From NCBI GenBank assembly GCA_902555695.1, contig CACDTV010000002.1, positions 62,001-126,000 of the forward strand: a stretch of DNA of 64,000 nucleotides. The letters are read 5' to 3'. The position numbers and the translations under genes are program-made. Position 1 is the first letter of the stretch. Each line of letters starts with the position of its first letter. This DNA is from an uncultured Alphaproteobacteria bacterium. GTDB taxonomy: Bacteria > Pseudomonadota > Alphaproteobacteria > HIMB59. The notes beneath the pieces were generated by a model that was given only the letters and a program-made list of their open reading frames with translations, was not told the DNA's origin and made no database searches. This document shows positions 5,532 to 26,812 of the stretch, piece by piece.

Positions 5532-5990
5532 ATGTCAATAAAATCAGTCAAAGATCATCTTAGTATTATAGCCCCTGACCTAGAGATATCAGAATTTAAA
5601 GAGTCTACAGCAACTGTTGAACAAGCTGCAAATGCTCATAATGTTGAGAAAGGACAAATAGTCAAAACAATTGCTTTAATTATAGAAAAACCAATTTTGT
5701 TAATGACTTCTGGAAATGTAAAAATCGATAATAGAAAATATAAGAATTTCTTCAAAAAAAAGGCAAAAATGTTGACTGCTGATGAGACATTGCAAATCAC
5801 CTCTCACCCTATTGGAGGGGTTTGTCCCTTTGGATTACCAAATAAATTAGATATATATTACGATAAGTCCTTAAATAACTTTGAAATCGTTATACCAGCA
5901 GCAGGATCTACCAATAGTTCTGTAAAAATTCAAACAAAAAGGCTTATAGAATTAACTAGTGCTTTTGAAGTTGATGTATGTAAAAAGTAA
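5532..5990 (+). CDS. YbaK/EbsC family aminoacyl-tRNA deacylase-like protein
   Basis: VEQAANAHNVEKGQIVKTIALI and GGVCPFGLPNKLDIYYD are YbaK-family signatures. Confidence 0.87.
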   Translation: MSIKSVKDHLSIIAPDLEISEFKESTATVEQAANAHNVEKGQIVKTIALIIEKPILLMTSGNVKIDNRKYKNFFKKKAKMLTADETLQITSHPIGGVCPFGLPNKLDIYYDKSLNNFEIVIPAAGSTNSSVKIQTKRLIELTSAFEVDVCKK

Positions 5991-6004
5991 GTAAAAACAG
6001 TATA

Positions 6005-6277
6005 TTATTTACTGTTATTATACTTAGATTTTACAATTTTTGGAGCAGTTGCAAAAGTAGCCGCTGTCATAAAAGTTCCAAAAATAAGGAGAAAATGAGC
6101 GCTAGCTGTGATGCCAAAAATCAAAAAAGAGCCAAAATATAGTGAAAAAATGATACACCACATCCATGCTAAAAGTTGCATAATGAGGTGTCTCAGGGCC
6201 ACACTAGGTATTTTTCTTAGAGGATTCCAATCAGCGTCCATCACTCCACTGTAAATTTGCATAAACATGTTTTTCAT
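6005..6277 (-). CDS. small predicted membrane protein, unknown function
   Basis: 90-aa ORF with two hydrophobic stretches; no overlapping alternative. Confidence 0.55.
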   Translation of the reverse strand: MKNMFMQIYSGVMDADWNPLRKIPSVALRHLIMQLLAWMWCIIFSLYFGSFLIFGITASAHFLLIFGTFMTAATFATAPKIVKSKYNNSK

Positions 6278-6358
6278 GGCCTTTTATACATGCGACAGAT
6301 GTGACCAGATCACTTATTTTTAATAATAATTTCAATTATTTCAGTTAAGGTAGAACCT

Positions 6359-6952
6359 ATGAGAAAAATAGAATTCTGGTACTCAATTGGAAGTACATAT
6401 ACTTACCTCTCCACGCAAAGATTAGCGCAGATAGAGACTGAAAATGAAGTTGTATTTGAATGGTGTCCTTTCAGTGTGAGATCAAGAATGATTGAAATGG
6501 AGAATGTCCCTTTTATGGCTGAAAAAAAAAGAGATAAGATTGATTATATGTGGCGGGATGTTCAGAGAAGAGCTAACTTCTATGGATTTAATGCAAAAGT
6601 ACCTGCACCCTACCCACTTAAAGAGTTCGATTTAGCCAACAAAGTTGCAATTTTGGGAAAAGATCAAGGGTGGATCAAAGAATATACTATCTTAACATAT
6701 AAAAAGTGGTTTTTAGAGCATTTGGAGCCTGGGTCAGAACCAAATCTGAGTTCTACTCTCAAAGAAATTGGACTTGATTCAGATAATGTAATAAAACAAG
6801 CTCAAAAAGACGAAATTGATCAAAAATATTTAAAAAACACAGAAATGGCTAAAAATAAAGGTATTTTTGGAAGTCCCACATTTATCGTTGAAAATGAGGT
6901 TTTTTGGGGTGATGACAGATGTGAAGATGCCATAAAATGGCTTTCAAAATAA
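6359..6952 (+). CDS. 2-hydroxychromene-2-carboxylate isomerase / DsbA-like family protein
   Basis: IEFWYSIGSTYTYLSTQRL start and GIFGSPTFIVENEVFWGDDR C-terminal motif. Confidence 0.88.
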   Translation: MRKIEFWYSIGSTYTYLSTQRLAQIETENEVVFEWCPFSVRSRMIEMENVPFMAEKKRDKIDYMWRDVQRRANFYGFNAKVPAPYPLKEFDLANKVAILGKDQGWIKEYTILTYKKWFLEHLEPGSEPNLSSTLKEIGLDSDNVIKQAQKDEIDQKYLKNTEMAKNKGIFGSPTFIVENEVFWGDDRCEDAIKWLSK

Positions 6953-7474
6953 TGTCTATTTTCAATTTTTTTGCGTTTTTAGGTATATTGAAATTTTATT
7001 AAGTATAAATCCTTAGGTAATTTTATGAATTTGACTATTGATTTACTGAAAAAAATATTGATAATCTTTCAACTCAAAATCCAAATATTTCCTAAATTTT
7101 GCTAGTGTCGCAATTTACATAAGGTTTTTAAGCTAAAAATGTCCGATTTTAATTTTTTTTTATAGTTTTTTTGAAATCATAGATTTGAATAACTGTTTTG
7201 ATAGTTTTATTAGCAAGTAATGATAACTATCACTTAATTTAGTGCTCTAATTTCTATTTAATCAGATAAAAATGTGTGAATACTAGTTTAATTCCTCCAA
7301 AATTTAATTAATTCTCAATATTTATGCTTAATATCTCATTTTATGTTTATTTTATTTTTGATTTAGTCAGATTATTTGTTTTTTTTCTTTATAAATAGAA
7401 TTAATAATAAATTAAAATATAGTTAGTAAATACAATACTTTATTATAAATATTTAATGTAAATTATAATACAGT

Positions 7475-17749: not shown

Positions 17750-19501
17750 ATGAATAGATCTTATAGAATTGAAGATAATAATTCTAATAGTTTTATACCT
17801 AGTTACTCTGGTACTAATGGTGCAGTAGCAACACATTCAAATTTATCCTCAATGACAGCCTATAATATTTTAAATCAAGACAGAGGTAATGCATTTGATG
17901 CTGCTGCTGGAGCAATGTTAGTTGAAGGTCTTGTAAATCCTCAAATGTTTGGAATGGGTGGTGAAGGTGTGATGATATTAAAACCCAAAAACCAAAACCC
18001 TGTTGTGTTAAATGGAAATACTTTATCGCCAAGAAAATTTAATTTTTTAAATTTAGTTACCAGGGGTTTTACAGAAGTTCCAGATGAAGGAGTATTATGT
18101 GCTGGAGTCCCAGCAGCATTTTCTAGTATTTTTAGAATGTTACAATTATATGGAACATTAGATTTTAGTACTATTTCTAAATATGCAAAAGAATACGCAA
18201 AAGAAGGATATCCTTTACACACAGGAATAATAAACCAAAATAAATTTGGGTTAAAAAGTCTAAAAGGTAAATTTATAAGAGAGTGGAAAAATTCTGCTAA
18301 ATTATATTTAAAAAATAATAAAATTCCAAAAGTAGGAAGTTTATTCAGAAATTCGGCTTACGCAAACTTAATTGATTATCTTGGTAATTACGAGAAAAAG
18401 ATTACAGGATCTCGAAATAATAAATTTAATAAATTGCATGATGCTTTTTATAAAGGTGATGTTGCAAACTCAATTTTAAAATATTCACAAAAAAATGAAG
18501 GGCTACTTTCAAAAGAAGATTTTGAAAATTTTAATGTGAAATTTGAAAAAACAATTTCAGAAAAATATGGTGATTACCAAGTTCATAAAACTAATTTCTG
18601 GGGACAAGGATTGACTAGTTTAATGATGTTGAAAATGCTTAACAAACAAAAAATTAAATCACTTAATTCAGCTGGTGATATTCATAAATTTACAGAAATT
18701 TTAAAATTAACTTTTGCTGACAGAGAGATGTATTTTACTGGGAAGTACAATTCAAAAGTCAAAGCAAATCACCTATTAGATGACTCTTACCTAAATAAAA
18801 GAATGCAATTAATTAAAGATAAGGCAATTGACTCTATAATTCCAGGGAGCCCCCTATCCAAGAAATCATTACTCCCAATTGAAAATGATATTAAACCATG
18901 GGGCGCTGGCACAGTTCATATAAGTATTATAGATAAAGATAATAATGCTATTTCGTGCACACCAAGTGGTGGATGGATCAGATCTAATGAAGTAATCAAT
19001 GAATTAGGATTTCCCCTAGGTAATAGATTAATGACGTTTTATTTATCAAAACCAGGTCACGTAAATTTTATAGCACCTGTACAACAACCAAGGACAACAT
19101 TGAGCCCTACTTTGATTATCAATCAAAAAAAGAGAGAAATTTTAAGTTGTGGGACTATGGGCGGTGACGCTCAAGATCAATGGCAAGCACAATTTTTAAT
19201 GAATTATATATTTTCAAATATGCCTATTGACCAAGCTTTAAATGAACCCAGAGTTTCATCAGAGCATTTACCTGCTTTTTTTCACCCTCATGATCCAAAT
19301 TTGAAACAATTATTATTAGAAGAGCGACTTTCGCCCTTTATTTCTCAATTAAATAAAAAAGGACATAAATGCCTTAAAACTACAGACTGGAGCGAAGGTT
19401 TTATTTTATGCGCTAGAAAACAAGATAAAATTTATGATGCATATGCAGATATTAGAAGTTATAAGAGTCAAATATTTCAAGCACAGGCATTAGCATGGTA
19501 A
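17750..19501 (+). CDS. ggt: gamma-glutamyltransferase family protein
   Basis: GNAFDAAAGAML, GMGGEGVM, GAGTVHISIIDKDNNAIS (nucleophile Thr region), CGTMGGDAQDQ. Confidence 0.9.
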   Translation: MNRSYRIEDNNSNSFIPSYSGTNGAVATHSNLSSMTAYNILNQDRGNAFDAAAGAMLVEGLVNPQMFGMGGEGVMILKPKNQNPVVLNGNTLSPRKFNFLNLVTRGFTEVPDEGVLCAGVPAAFSSIFRMLQLYGTLDFSTISKYAKEYAKEGYPLHTGIINQNKFGLKSLKGKFIREWKNSAKLYLKNNKIPKVGSLFRNSAYANLIDYLGNYEKKITGSRNNKFNKLHDAFYKGDVANSILKYSQKNEGLLSKEDFENFNVKFEKTISEKYGDYQVHKTNFWGQGLTSLMMLKMLNKQKIKSLNSAGDIHKFTEILKLTFADREMYFTGKYNSKVKANHLLDDSYLNKRMQLIKDKAIDSIIPGSPLSKKSLLPIENDIKPWGAGTVHISIIDKDNNAISCTPSGGWIRSNEVINELGFPLGNRLMTFYLSKPGHVNFIAPVQQPRTTLSPTLIINQKKREILSCGTMGGDAQDQWQAQFLMNYIFSNMPIDQALNEPRVSSEHLPAFFHPHDPNLKQLLLEERLSPFISQLNKKGHKCLKTTDWSEGFILCARKQDKIYDAYADIRSYKSQIFQAQALAW

Positions 19502-22447: not shown

Positions 22448-23605
22448 ATGAATAACTTATTAAAAACATACAAATTTAGTAATTTTAGAGTAGTAAAAGG
22501 TAATGGATGTTATTTATACACCTCTGATAAAAGAAAATTATTGGATTTCTCAGCAGGAGTTGCAGTCAATTCTCTTGGCTATAATCACCTAGTTGTAAGA
22601 AAAAGTTTACAAGATCAAGTAAAAACTGGCATTACTCATTTATCGGGTTCTCAAATGCATGAGTTCAAGACTAAATTATCTAAATTATTATCTGAAAATT
22701 CTAACAAAGGTGATGTGTTCTTTTCTAATTCAGGTGCAGAAAGCATTGAAGCTGCATTAAAAATAGCAAGAAACTATGGAAGTAAAAAGGGCAAAGATGA
22801 AATTATTGCTATGACTTCCTCTTTTCATGGAAGAACAATTGGAGCCTTATCAGTCGGCAGTAATAAAAAATACAAATCTGACATAGGGCCTGTACCAGGT
22901 AAAGTAAAGTTTTGTAAATTTAATGACGTCTCTCATCTCAAAAAATTAGTAAATAAAAAAACGGTAGCAATAATAATAGAATTTGTTCAAGGAGACGGAG
23001 GTATAAATATTTGCAGTAAGAATTTTGCTAAAACTATAAAAGAGATATGTAAAAATAAGAAAATTCTACTTATTGGAGATGAAATACAAGGTGGCATAGG
23101 TAGAACTGGAAAAATATTTGCTTACAAACATTACGGTGTCAATCCAGATATCATAACCTCAGCCAAAGGATTAGGTTCAGGAATCCCTATTGGAGCAACA
23201 ATAGTTAAAAAAGAAATATCAAAAAATATAAGTATTGGTTTCCACGGCTCTACTTTTGGAGGTGGAATGTTGCAAACACGGGTTGCATACAATGTCTTTA
23301 AAACAATCAATAAAAAAAGTTTTTTAAATAAAGTTATTAATAATGGAAACTTACTCTCTAAATTATTAAATCAATTGAAATCAAAGCATGAAATTTTTAT
23401 AAAAGAGGTTAGATCGAAAGGTTTAATGGCAGCAATCGAATTTAAAAATAATCATGATGCTTTAAAACTTTACAATAAAATTGCTAAAGATGGTTTAGTT
23501 ACAACTTTAATACAAGGTAATACTATTAGAATTACTCCACCTTTAGTAATTGAGAAAAAAGATTTAATAAAAGGAATTGAAATTATCTCAACTAATTTAG
23601 AGTAA
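22448..23605 (+). CDS. argD: acetylornithine/succinylornithine-type aminotransferase
   Basis: GAESIEAALKIARNY, SFHGRTIGALS, GDEIQGGIGRTGK, TSAKGLGSGIPIGA. Confidence 0.92.
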   Translation: MNNLLKTYKFSNFRVVKGNGCYLYTSDKRKLLDFSAGVAVNSLGYNHLVVRKSLQDQVKTGITHLSGSQMHEFKTKLSKLLSENSNKGDVFFSNSGAESIEAALKIARNYGSKKGKDEIIAMTSSFHGRTIGALSVGSNKKYKSDIGPVPGKVKFCKFNDVSHLKKLVNKKTVAIIIEFVQGDGGINICSKNFAKTIKEICKNKKILLIGDEIQGGIGRTGKIFAYKHYGVNPDIITSAKGLGSGIPIGATIVKKEISKNISIGFHGSTFGGGMLQTRVAYNVFKTINKKSFLNKVINNGNLLSKLLNQLKSKHEIFIKEVRSKGLMAAIEFKNNHDALKLYNKIAKDGLVTTLIQGNTIRITPPLVIEKKDLIKGIEIISTNLE

Positions 23606-23612
23606 TTGTTAA

Positions 23613-23930
23613 ATGATCAAAATCCAATCAATACTAATACTAATACCTTTTATGATTTTTTTTGAAGCTGTTTATGCTGAAACAGACTCATATGTAAGAA
23701 ACAAAAATTGTGAAAGATTGGCAGGTGTAATTAACAGCCATGAGGTTACTTGGAATAATTTGTATCATGAAAAATCAGAGGAACTTGCTAAAGGAACAAA
23801 GATTTCATTTGAAGAAGTATATAAGATTAATGATAAAATATATGATCTAGAAGAGAAGCTTCTAATTAAGGTGAATTTATATAAGGATTTATGTATTAAA
23901 TCTAAAATTCCAACTATTGATTTACCATAA
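23613..23930 (+). CDS. small secreted/periplasmic protein, unknown
   Basis: Signal peptide-like N-terminus, 105 aa, two Cys. Confidence 0.55.
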   Translation: MIKIQSILILIPFMIFFEAVYAETDSYVRNKNCERLAGVINSHEVTWNNLYHEKSEELAKGTKISFEEVYKINDKIYDLEEKLLIKVNLYKDLCIKSKIPTIDLP

Positions 23931-23932
23931 AT

Positions 23933-24781
23933 TTAATAGTCTAAAGATTGTTTTTGAAAAACAGTGCCAATGCCCTCTTCTGTTTCTAATTCTGTAAGTA
24001 AGGCATTTTTTATTTCACCACTTAAAATATGAATTTTTTGAACACCTTGATTTAAAGCTTTTAATGAGTTTTCGACTTTTACAATCATTCCATTAGAAAT
24101 GATTTTCTCATCAAATAGTTTTCTTGCCACATTTTCATCGACTGCAGAAATTCTTTCTCCTTGTGTATCTTTAATAAAAGGAACGTCGGAGATAAAAATT
24201 AGTTTACTAGCTGAAAGATTTATTGCTAATTCAGTAGCAATGGTGTCAGCATTAACATTTAATACTTCAGATGTATTTTTATCTAAAACTAAGCTTGGCA
24301 TAATTATCATATCATGTTCTTTAAATAAGTTTTTAATTTGTAAAGCATCAACTGAAACGACGTCCCCTACTTGACCATAATCAATGTTATCAACTACATC
24401 TCTTCTTTTTGCTGCAATAAAGTCTTTCTTTGAAATAGGAATTGGAAAATTTCTGATATTATATCGTGAGCTCAAACTAAAAATATCTATTAAAATTTGA
24501 CCAGATATTTTTTTGGCTGCCTCTATGTCTGTGGGAGATGTTACTCTTCTACCATTTATTTTTTTTGGCTCAATACCATGTACATTGATCATATAATTAT
24601 CTAGCTGTCGTCCAAATCCAAAGACTAAAACAACTTTTAACTTCGAAATAGAGTTTAATAATTCTTTAATGTCGCTTATAACATTATCTATACTACCTTC
24701 ATTATCACAAATTTTACCACTAACTTTAATGACAAGTATGGAATTTTGTAATATTGATTGGTAAAAACTTTGATTTTTCAT
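23933..24781 (-). CDS. argB: amino-acid kinase family, N-acetylglutamate kinase-like (ArgB-like), divergent
   Basis: VIKVSGKI, VLVFGFGRQLD, INGRRVTSPTDIEAAKK, LNVNADTIATELA; adjacent to argC-like gene. Confidence 0.78.
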   Translation of the reverse strand: MKNQSFYQSILQNSILVIKVSGKICDNEGSIDNVISDIKELLNSISKLKVVLVFGFGRQLDNYMINVHGIEPKKINGRRVTSPTDIEAAKKISGQILIDIFSLSSRYNIRNFPIPISKKDFIAAKRRDVVDNIDYGQVGDVVSVDALQIKNLFKEHDMIIMPSLVLDKNTSEVLNVNADTIATELAINLSASKLIFISDVPFIKDTQGERISAVDENVARKLFDEKIISNGMIVKVENSLKALNQGVQKIHILSGEIKNALLTELETEEGIGTVFQKQSLDY

Positions 24782-25773
24782 TATAGATATAAAGGTATCA
24801 TTTGTTTCAATCCCAGAGTTTGATCAAGATCAAAGATTATATTCATGCACTCAATAGCATTACCTGAGGCACCCTTTACTAAGTTATCTAAACAAGCCTC
24901 TATTACAAAGTGCCTCTCATCTTTGTAAGAAATTGAAATATCACAATAATTTGAACCTACTACGTTAGAAAGCTTAGTATTATCTTGTACTCTAATGAAA
25001 GGAGATGATTTAAAACAATCAATTAAAATGGAATTTAAGGACTCATAAGTTGAATCTTCATTTATTTCTATGTGACTTGTAAGATATATACCTCTAGAGA
25101 AAGGTCCTGACAATGGAACAAATGATAGAGTCTCCTTTAAATTTGGAAAAGATTGATAAATTTCTGCTAAATGTCGATGTGAATTTATATTGTATGAAAA
25201 AATATCTTTAGATCTTGTCGAATGATGATTTTTCATAGAGGGATTTTTACCACCACCACTTGATCCAGTAATAGCAGTAATAAATACTTTTTTAATTATA
25301 GATTGAAATGGTAATAAAGAAAGTTGAGCCGTTAGTGCAAAGCAACCAGGATTGGATATGTTAGAAGATTTTTTTATGTCATCAATTGAATTTTCAATAA
25401 ATCCGTATTGGAACTTGCTTTGAATTTCAGAATCAAAATTTGATTTGTAATAGTTGTTATAATCCTCTTGATTAGAAATTCTAAAATCAGAACTTAGGTC
25501 TATGATTTTAACTTTTGATAATAATTCTTTGACATATTCATGGGCTGAACCATGAGGTAATGATAAAAAAACACAATCGAGATTTTTAAAATCATCAAGA
25601 TTAGATGTCTGTAAATCTTTCAAATTTAACGACTGTAAATGTGGAAATTCCTCATCTATTTCCATTTCTCTTTGAAAGATTTTTGATAATTTTACTTCAG
25701 GATGTACAGAGAGAATTCGTATTAACTCAACACCTAAATAACCATTTGCTCCAATTATGCCTACTTTAATCAT
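24781..25773 (-). CDS. argC: N-acetyl-gamma-glutamyl-phosphate reductase-like (ArgC/LysY)
   Basis: VGIIGANGYLGVELIRIL, SNPGCFALTAQL catalytic Cys, TGSSGGGKNPS, HRHLAEI. Confidence 0.88.
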   Translation of the reverse strand: MIKVGIIGANGYLGVELIRILSVHPEVKLSKIFQREMEIDEEFPHLQSLNLKDLQTSNLDDFKNLDCVFLSLPHGSAHEYVKELLSKVKIIDLSSDFRISNQEDYNNYYKSNFDSEIQSKFQYGFIENSIDDIKKSSNISNPGCFALTAQLSLLPFQSIIKKVFITAITGSSGGGKNPSMKNHHSTRSKDIFSYNINSHRHLAEIYQSFPNLKETLSFVPLSGPFSRGIYLTSHIEINEDSTYESLNSILIDCFKSSPFIRVQDNTKLSNVVGSNYCDISISYKDERHFVIEACLDNLVKGASGNAIECMNIIFDLDQTLGLKQMIPLYL

Positions 25774-26812
25774 TATTAATCCTATTAATTATCTTAGCAA
25801 AAACATTGACATGGTTAGTTGAATTATAAATATTTAAAAAGTCTGAATTAGGTATAGAAAACTTATCAATTGATTGCTTATAAGCAGATACGTTATTAGT
25901 TACAGGGCCACTTATTATCAGTAATTTATTATCTAAATTATTTGATTTTAAATTTTCTATAATATTTACTGCTCCTGAAACGTCATAAGCGCAAATTACA
26001 ATAACTTCAATTGGCTCTGTAATATCAGTATTTTGAATTATTTCTTTAGTTCCATAATCGCCATGATAACCATCACCTAATTCCATTAGAATTATTTCAG
26101 CGTCCTCAGACATATTGCTAATAATTGATGTTGAACAACTTTGTATGGTTTTTTTATCGTTCATACAGGTACTAGGCAGACCATAATCTACAAAATCTGA
26201 TGTTTTATAAGCACCATTATCCTCATAAGAATATAAGTCTTTTTGTGAAGCAGTGCCTGCTAATTTACATGCATTAATTTTCTTAAAATAATTACTTAAA
26301 GTTTTAATTATAAAGGATGTGACAGTAGTTTTACCAGAGTCAATACCTGTTCCGATGACTGCAATAGATGGTACTTTATTGTTAATTTTCATTTCTTTTA
26401 TTTTTGAATAATCAACTAGATTCAGTTGTTTGTTACTATTATCTACAATCGATCCAAGGACTTCACATTCTGTAGCTGGTCCTAGAAGAATATTAAAATC
26501 TTTACAATTACCAATAACTCCTCCTAAATTTAAAATATGAATTTTGTCGTGTTTATTTAATTCAGTAGGAACAGAACCTGTCATTCCTGAGGAAGCAATT
26601 CTATTACCCAATGCACCAACGATAATATCTCCCTCAGTTAATTCAGTAATTCTTCCAGAGACTAACTCCAATTTATTATAGTTTGGATTGACTGAAATTA
26701 CTTTAACAGCAATTAATTGACCTTGATTACAATTAATTACATCTGAAATGCTCAATTCATCAATATTATTGATGTTTTTGAGAACAGAGCCTATTTTTTT
26801 TGTGTTAATCAT
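25766..26812 (-). CDS. P-loop protein, DUF1611/DgcN-like (tentative)
   Basis: Central IGTGIDSGKTTVTS P-loop after a beta-rich N-terminal domain; operon with argC/argB-like genes. Confidence 0.5.
   Translation of the reverse strand: MINTKKIGSVLKNINNIDELSISDVINCNQGQLIAVKVISVNPNYNKLELVSGRITELTEGDIIVGALGNRIASSGMTGSVPTELNKHDKIHILNLGGVIGNCKDFNILLGPATECEVLGSIVDNSNKQLNLVDYSKIKEMKINNKVPSIAVIGTGIDSGKTTVTSFIIKTLSNYFKKINACKLAGTASQKDLYSYEDNGAYKTSDFVDYGLPSTCMNDKKTIQSCSTSIISNMSEDAEIILMELGDGYHGDYGTKEIIQNTDITEPIEVIVICAYDVSGAVNIIENLKSNNLDNKLLIISGPVTNNVSAYKQSIDKFSIPNSDFLNIYNSTNHVNVFAKIINRINND

Follow-up and report, generated by a model that had tools for sequence, protein, structure and literature searches.

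A conserved P-loop protein encoded with ArgC and ArgB in the HIMB59 clade as a candidate first-step enzyme of arginine biosynthesis

How might a bacterium protect the amino group of glutamate on the way to arginine when the known enzymes of this step are missing from its genome? The question is raised by a cluster of genes within a window of 64,000 nucleotides (the whole stretch of DNA analysed; contig CACDTV010000002.1, positions 62,001 to 126,000) from an uncultured alphaproteobacterium of the HIMB59 clade, whose members are abundant marine bacteria. The HIMB59/AEGEAN-169 clade occurs throughout the ocean (PMC10308909), and no mention of arginine was found in the paper that describes this.

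The gene cluster and its conservation

A preliminary description of the window had read three minus-strand genes, encoding a P-loop protein, an ArgC-like reductase and an ArgB-like kinase, as a single unit. All three open reading frames were confirmed in position with clean reading frames, and the motifs quoted for them are present, namely GFGRQLD and INGRRVTSP in ArgB, KNHHSTRS...HRHLAEI in ArgC and GTGIDSGKTT in the P-loop protein. The features of the cluster are as follows:

22448-23605, plus strand: ArgD-type N-acylornithine aminotransferase (385 aa; TIGR00707), tail-to-tail with argB
23933-24781, minus strand: ArgB-type N-acylglutamate kinase (282 aa; PF00696 match; no GNAT domain)
24599-24622, minus strand: FGFGRQLD loop of ArgB (residues 54-61), replacing HGGG in the alignment
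24781-25773, minus strand: ArgC-type N-acyl-gamma-glutamyl-phosphate reductase (330 aa; TIGR01850 match above cut-off)
25210-25230, minus strand: NHHSTRS loop of ArgC (residues 182-188), with Arg187 as the HHxxR arginine
25766-26812, minus strand: P-loop protein (348 aa) with an N-terminal beta-rich domain and a predicted C-terminal SIMIBI-type P-loop NTPase domain; proposed glutamate N-acylating enzyme
26324-26353, minus strand: BioD-type Walker A motif GTGIDSGKTT of the P-loop protein (residues 154-163)

Neighbouring reading frames overlap, by 8 bases between the P-loop protein and ArgC and by 1 base between ArgC and ArgB, resembling the arrangement in a translationally coupled operon. The argD-like gene, which is absent from the preliminary description, is part of the same gene set; it scores 392.6 bits with TIGR00707 (cut-off 410), it was found in 35 of the 38 HIMB59-clade loci fetched, and the best ArgD match of a complete relative of the same genus as the window (G001; 1,410,127 bases) sits inside the same cluster. 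The four-gene cluster is complete in 34 of these 38 loci, with near constant spacing of the P-loop gene, argC and argB in all 34, while the gap between argB and argD differs from strain to strain, being nearly absent in some and reaching about 2.2 kb in others. The window's own gap (23606-23932) holds a small ORF of 105 aa whose product looks secreted.

Among the 52 family genomes sampled from the HIMB59/AEGEAN-169 clade, the P-loop protein was detected in 42, and some of the absences are due to assembly gaps, since in at least one genome lacking the protein (G016) a piece of argB lies close to where a contig begins. Since the window's own genome is 71% complete, statements of absence rest on G001 and on this family set.

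Homologous operons were also obtained from two other alphaproteobacterial families. In both genomes of family f137 (G287 and G368), the order is P-loop gene, argC, argB, argD and argF, all in one direction, with argG and argH of G368 located within 5 kb downstream, and in the genome of family f14 (G674) an argR-like gene, recognised by eye, is followed by the P-loop gene, argC and argB. The P-loop protein of f137 and f14 is about 31-37% identical to that of the window, and their ArgC 30-43%. In all, at least three bacterial families encode the P-loop protein together with the arginine genes that act next. The grouping of the P-loop gene, argC and argB is real and conserved rather than due to chance, because its spacing is nearly fixed in the HIMB59 clade and a homologous grouping occurs in the two other families.

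Arginine pathway genes and the missing first step

The argB and argC of the cluster are the sole copies in the complete genome G001, where argF, argG, argH, carA and carB were all found and where the four amino acid kinases comprise the cluster's ArgB and three with frame lengths fitting lysC, proB and pyrH. A normal argA or argJ elsewhere, which the preliminary description had set beforehand as a finding against its proposal, did not appear. ArgJ was found in none of the 52 family genomes, though the same search was positive in 10 of 14 control genomes, nor was it found in either f137 genome (both 99% complete); an E. coli ArgA query against G001 matched just the cluster's ArgB and one GNAT, whose best model is RimI, just under the RimI cut-off. 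LysW, already missed in the window, was not found in complete G001 either, nor was a LysX-type ligase. With the known first-step enzymes missing, the earlier suggestion of an unusual first step in N-acylglutamate supply is supported. The three-gene cluster very probably serves arginine biosynthesis, because G001 has a sole argB and argC along with argF, argG, argH and carAB, ArgJ is missing, and the homologous operons are arg operons.

HIMB59 ArgF scores 275 and 245 bits with the ornithine models (cut-offs 306 and 281) versus 102 bits with the N-acetylornithine model, and a route through an N-acylornithine carbamoyltransferase was rejected on these far higher ornithine scores, though they fall below their cut-offs. 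Judged from its genes, the arginine pathway of G001 is otherwise ordinary, minus the known first step and a clear ArgE.

The P-loop protein probably replaces ArgA/ArgJ as the enzyme that N-acylates glutamate, a grading that covers the replacement and leaves aside the details of the chemistry. The basis of this claim is gene content, operon conservation, the missing first-step enzymes, motifs and phylogeny; what we infer is the enzyme activity, its use of ATP, the nature of the acyl group and the deacylase. It is unlikely that a GNAT encoded elsewhere makes N-acetylglutamate, with the P-loop protein serving the arg operon as a regulator, an accessory factor or an ATPase resembling a metallochaperone. 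SIMIBI NTPases do include regulators and chaperones, and the f137 genomes are rich in GNATs (14 in G287 and 8 in G368), so that a divergent GNAT synthase is possible there; however, only two GNATs were found in complete G001, the RimI-like one and a small one without assignment (113993-114442), neither matching the GNAT of the Bacteroidota succinyl pathway, and the P-loop gene stands ahead of argC and argB in each of the three families.

Other alphaproteobacteria, and one proteobacterium further afield, encode distant paralogs of the P-loop protein (about 21-28% identity), most of which have an ABC exporter gene as neighbour; at eight of the loci inspected the paralog lies directly before the exporter gene (TMD plus ATPase), often near apparent two-component or anti-sigma factor genes. 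Some distant paralogs adjoin a beta-aspartyl-peptidase-like gene, and in two genomes (G234 and G651) the neighbour is an M20 hydrolase; direct pairs of paralog and M20 hydrolase gene were seen at loci L185 (9329-11703) and L282 (9132-11340), from two genomes. Paralogs beside M20 hydrolases fit what is expected of protect/deprotect pairs, and so does a further paralog with an M20 gene in its vicinity. It is located at 5896-6957 on the Priestia megaterium plasmid NZ_CP085446.1, among genes for an ornithine carbamoyltransferase, two ATP-grasp proteins, thiamine-diphosphate enzymes, a PEP mutase family protein and an M20 peptidase, a region that looks like a phosphonate natural-product cluster. 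No relatives of the P-loop protein were found in viral contigs. The exporter neighbourhoods and the Priestia region would fit a cluster product other than arginine, and the preliminary description had considered a different N-protected amino acid. For the window such a product is extremely improbable, given the sole argB and argC of G001 and the argF, argG, argH or argR beside the homologous operons.

Predicted chemistry of the P-loop protein and its partners

No Pfam or NCBIfam model matched the P-loop protein above its cut-off. The preliminary description had proposed membership of DUF1611, the family of DgcN; PF07755 did not match the window protein, its homologs reached at most 21.5 bits against a cut-off of 25, and hhalign of the P-loop family with 26 DUF1611 proteins was limited to 30-37 columns around the P-loop at a probability under 2%, so that this membership is not supported. 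The GTxxxxGK[TS]-type Walker A, with T varying to S or A, is found in 18 of 18 family members compared. DgcN carries GKM or GKK at the site of GKT or GKS, and the residue expected to hold Mg is therefore different. An hmmsearch of the PDB gave dethiobiotin synthetases (BioD) as best, though weak, hits (E 0.006). The C-terminal domain modelled alone reached moderate confidence (pLDDT 76.8, pTM 0.81), and Foldseek matched it best to CooC1 (E 2.4e-5), followed by HypB, MeaB and NifH, with TM-scores of about 0.5-0.6; a whole-length AlphaFold model was discarded for its mean pLDDT of 50.9 and meaningless Foldseek matches. On this model the C-terminal domain is predicted to be a P-loop NTPase of the SIMIBI type, and its motif is BioD-like. 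Because of this SIMIBI-type model, the BioD-like Walker A, the weak BioD match and the GKT or GKS unlike DgcN, an ATP-using ligase seems likelier than a CoA transferase. The family is undescribed; no description of it in arginine biosynthesis was found in the literature searched, whose coverage excludes most subscription journals.

The reductase bears on the acyl group. ArgC scores 300.3 bits with TIGR01850, above the equivalog cut-off of 233.6, and its loop is NHHSTRS, THHPIRN or THHPQRH depending on the P-loop family. The resemblance to LysY noted in the preliminary description is real at the HHxxR motif, since the same arginine occurs in SHHPERA of Thermus LysY; it is likewise found in SHFSWRN of the Bacteroidota succinyl-type ArgC and kept in carrier-type ArgC of Streptomyces, Rhodococcus and others. 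This arginine is present in 6/6 P-loop-type, 3/3 succinyl-type and 6/6 carrier-type (LysW/RimK) ArgC, and in 1/10 of acetyl or untyped ArgC (Paracoccus), where the type of a plasmid ArgC was taken from its neighbours or its phylum, and the succinyl type of the Bacteroidota plasmid ArgC was assumed from the phylum. In a tree built with the motif columns removed, P-loop-type ArgC grouped with the succinyl type (97/94), apart from the acetyl type (92/90) and from the carrier type (94/92). A single clade of P-loop-type and carrier-type ArgC was rejected by the AU test (p 0.017; 0.040 without f14), whereas one of P-loop-type and acetyl-type ArgC was not (p 0.06; 0.12 without f14). An acyl group with its own free carboxylate, succinyl-like, would be the simplest reading and is favoured over acetyl, because of the HHxxR arginine of ArgC and its grouping with succinyl-type ArgC.

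Three actinobacterial plasmid clusters combine homologs of ArgC and ArgB with a RimK-type ligase and a gene of the gamma-glutamyl-GABA hydrolase family, LysW being annotated in two of them; all three are probably carrier-protein pathways for a natural product.

We tentatively suggest that the P-loop protein is a SIMIBI-class ligase that would couple a dicarboxylic acid, either succinate or glutamate reacting at its gamma-carboxyl, to the amino group of glutamate at the expense of ATP, with no use of CoA, GNAT, ArgJ or carrier protein. It seems doubtful that its product is instead N-acetyl-L-glutamate formed with acetyl-CoA, the reaction that DgcN carries out on D-glutamate, with the P-loop of the protein holding the CoA phosphates and ATP being unused. 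One DUF1611 protein of the same class is assigned by NCBIfam to the N-acetyltransferase DgcN, a GTxxxxGK pattern and an acidic ExG motif are common to DUF1611 and the P-loop family by eye, a plasmid paralog is publicly annotated as 'DUF1611 domain-containing protein', and the AU test does not reject the grouping with acetyl-type ArgC; however, neither Pfam nor hhalign joins the families, the expected Mg-holding residue differs, and the ArgC partners carry HHxxR.

ArgB contains AA_kinase (PF00696, 93.6 bits) as the sole domain in its 282 aa, and the earlier remark that no GNAT domain is attached holds. Among NCBIfam models it fits the ArgA family PRK05279 best, at 136.7 bits and under the cut-off, while the argB model TIGR00761 gives 129.1 bits, below the cut-off of 151.3. 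The GFG loop was seen in the HIMB59 clade alone, the ArgB of f137 and f14 having GGG. In an alignment with E. coli ArgB, it keeps the residues aligning with NAGK Lys8, Arg66, Asn158, Asp162 and Lys217, whose numbering and catalytic roles we take to be as commonly given, and by these it looks like an active kinase. A small kinase tree groups HIMB59 and f137 ArgB with the ArgA kinase domain (83/94), with f14 ArgB outside and E. coli ArgA on a long branch, and this kinship is only suggestive. The likeness to the kinase domain of NAGS put forward in the preliminary description has some support, from the best model and from the tree for HIMB59 and f137, though not for f14.

No recognisable ArgE was detected in HIMB59. 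The M20 search gave DapE as the single M20 in two HIMB59-clade genomes, DapE plus an AllC-like M20 in G001, and in a fourth genome a single match cut by the contig end. DapE, the sole conserved M20 found in HIMB59, has its own job beside dapD, and G368 has a single M20D amidohydrolase just upstream of the arg operon; DapE in HIMB59 and the M20D amidohydrolase in f137 are no more than candidates for the deacylase. The AllC-like M20 was rejected, being seen in G001 alone among the HIMB59-clade genomes searched.

A gamma-glutamyltransferase-like (GGT-like) gene (PF01019) is located at 17750-19501 on the plus strand of the window, its product having no obvious signal peptide by eye. A gamma-glutamyl protecting group, with chemistry like that of LysW but no carrier, would have the P-loop protein ligate glutamate to glutamate and this GGT-like enzyme free ornithine. 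The HHxxR of ArgC is common to LysY and to LysW/RimK-type ArgC, a GGT-like gene is found close by in 26 of the 38 HIMB59-clade loci, and GGT is also present in G287 and G674; against this, P-loop-type ArgC stands apart from the carrier type in the AU test, and G368 (99% complete) has the same operon and no GGT. We regard this route as very unlikely, and GGT as a general deprotecting enzyme was rejected because of G368.

Proposed pathway and comparison with known systems

If the P-loop protein replaces ArgA/ArgJ, the cluster would cover arginine biosynthesis as far as ornithine. The protein would add a protecting acyl group to the alpha-amino group of L-glutamate, most likely spending ATP on activating a carboxylate so that an amide can form, as its BioD-like Mg-nucleotide motifs suggest; the acyl group, going by the ArgC partner, probably bears its own carboxylate, succinyl being the simplest case. 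ArgB would then phosphorylate the gamma-carboxylate, ArgC reduce it and ArgD transaminate the product, after which a deacylase would free ornithine for ArgF, ArgG and ArgH.

With the known first-step enzymes missing, automatic pathway tools are expected to call arginine auxotrophy or to leave a gap. If the P-loop protein fills this gap, such a call would be wrong, a new enzyme family would gain a function, and the number of ways to protect glutamate could be tested with one purified protein. If the ATP-ligase reading is true, arginine would be reached by a new kind of chemistry, and a family of N-protecting ligases would start with this protein, with paralogs in other pathways, some of them beside M20 deacylases. 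The HHxxR of ArgC could also serve as a sequence marker of the acyl-group type.

ArgA, ArgJ, ArgO, S-NAGS, H-NAGS and C-NAGS perform the same step (PMC4490483, PMC3827942), but the P-loop protein has neither a GNAT nor an ArgJ domain. C-NAGS contains an acetyltransf_1 (GNAT) domain (PMC3827942), and was for that reason rejected as a known P-loop synthase. In bifunctional NAGS-K the kinase is fused to a GNAT, whereas ArgB here is the AA_kinase domain only.

N-succinyl intermediates are supported for the arginine pathway of Bacteroidota (PMC7311316). That pathway is alike in applying ArgB, ArgC and ArgD homologs to N-acylated glutamate, in the ArgC grouping and in the arginine of HFSWR/HHxxR; it differs in having a GNAT-type synthase and an N-succinylornithine carbamoyltransferase, where the P-loop protein stands here, along with an ArgF whose scores are far higher for ornithine than for N-acetylornithine carbamoyltransferase. 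With the LysW/ArgW pathway (PMC10433800) the cluster would share ATP-driven protection of the amino group, which is plausible here, and the HHxxR loop of LysY, but neither LysW nor a LysX-type ATP-grasp ligase was found in G001.

The link to DgcN/DUF1611 (PF07755, NF041892; D-glutamate N-acetyltransferase) is an analogy, consisting of a P-loop protein, GTxxxxGK and the N-acylation of glutamate proposed here; there is no significant family match, GKM/GKK stands against GKT/GKS, and the N-terminal sequence differs. Though the matches to BioD and other SIMIBI NTPases are weak, and the P-loop protein differs from them by its extra N-terminal beta-rich domain and its arg operon context, it shares with them the BioD-type Walker A, the following K..TGT..D region and the predicted fold class.
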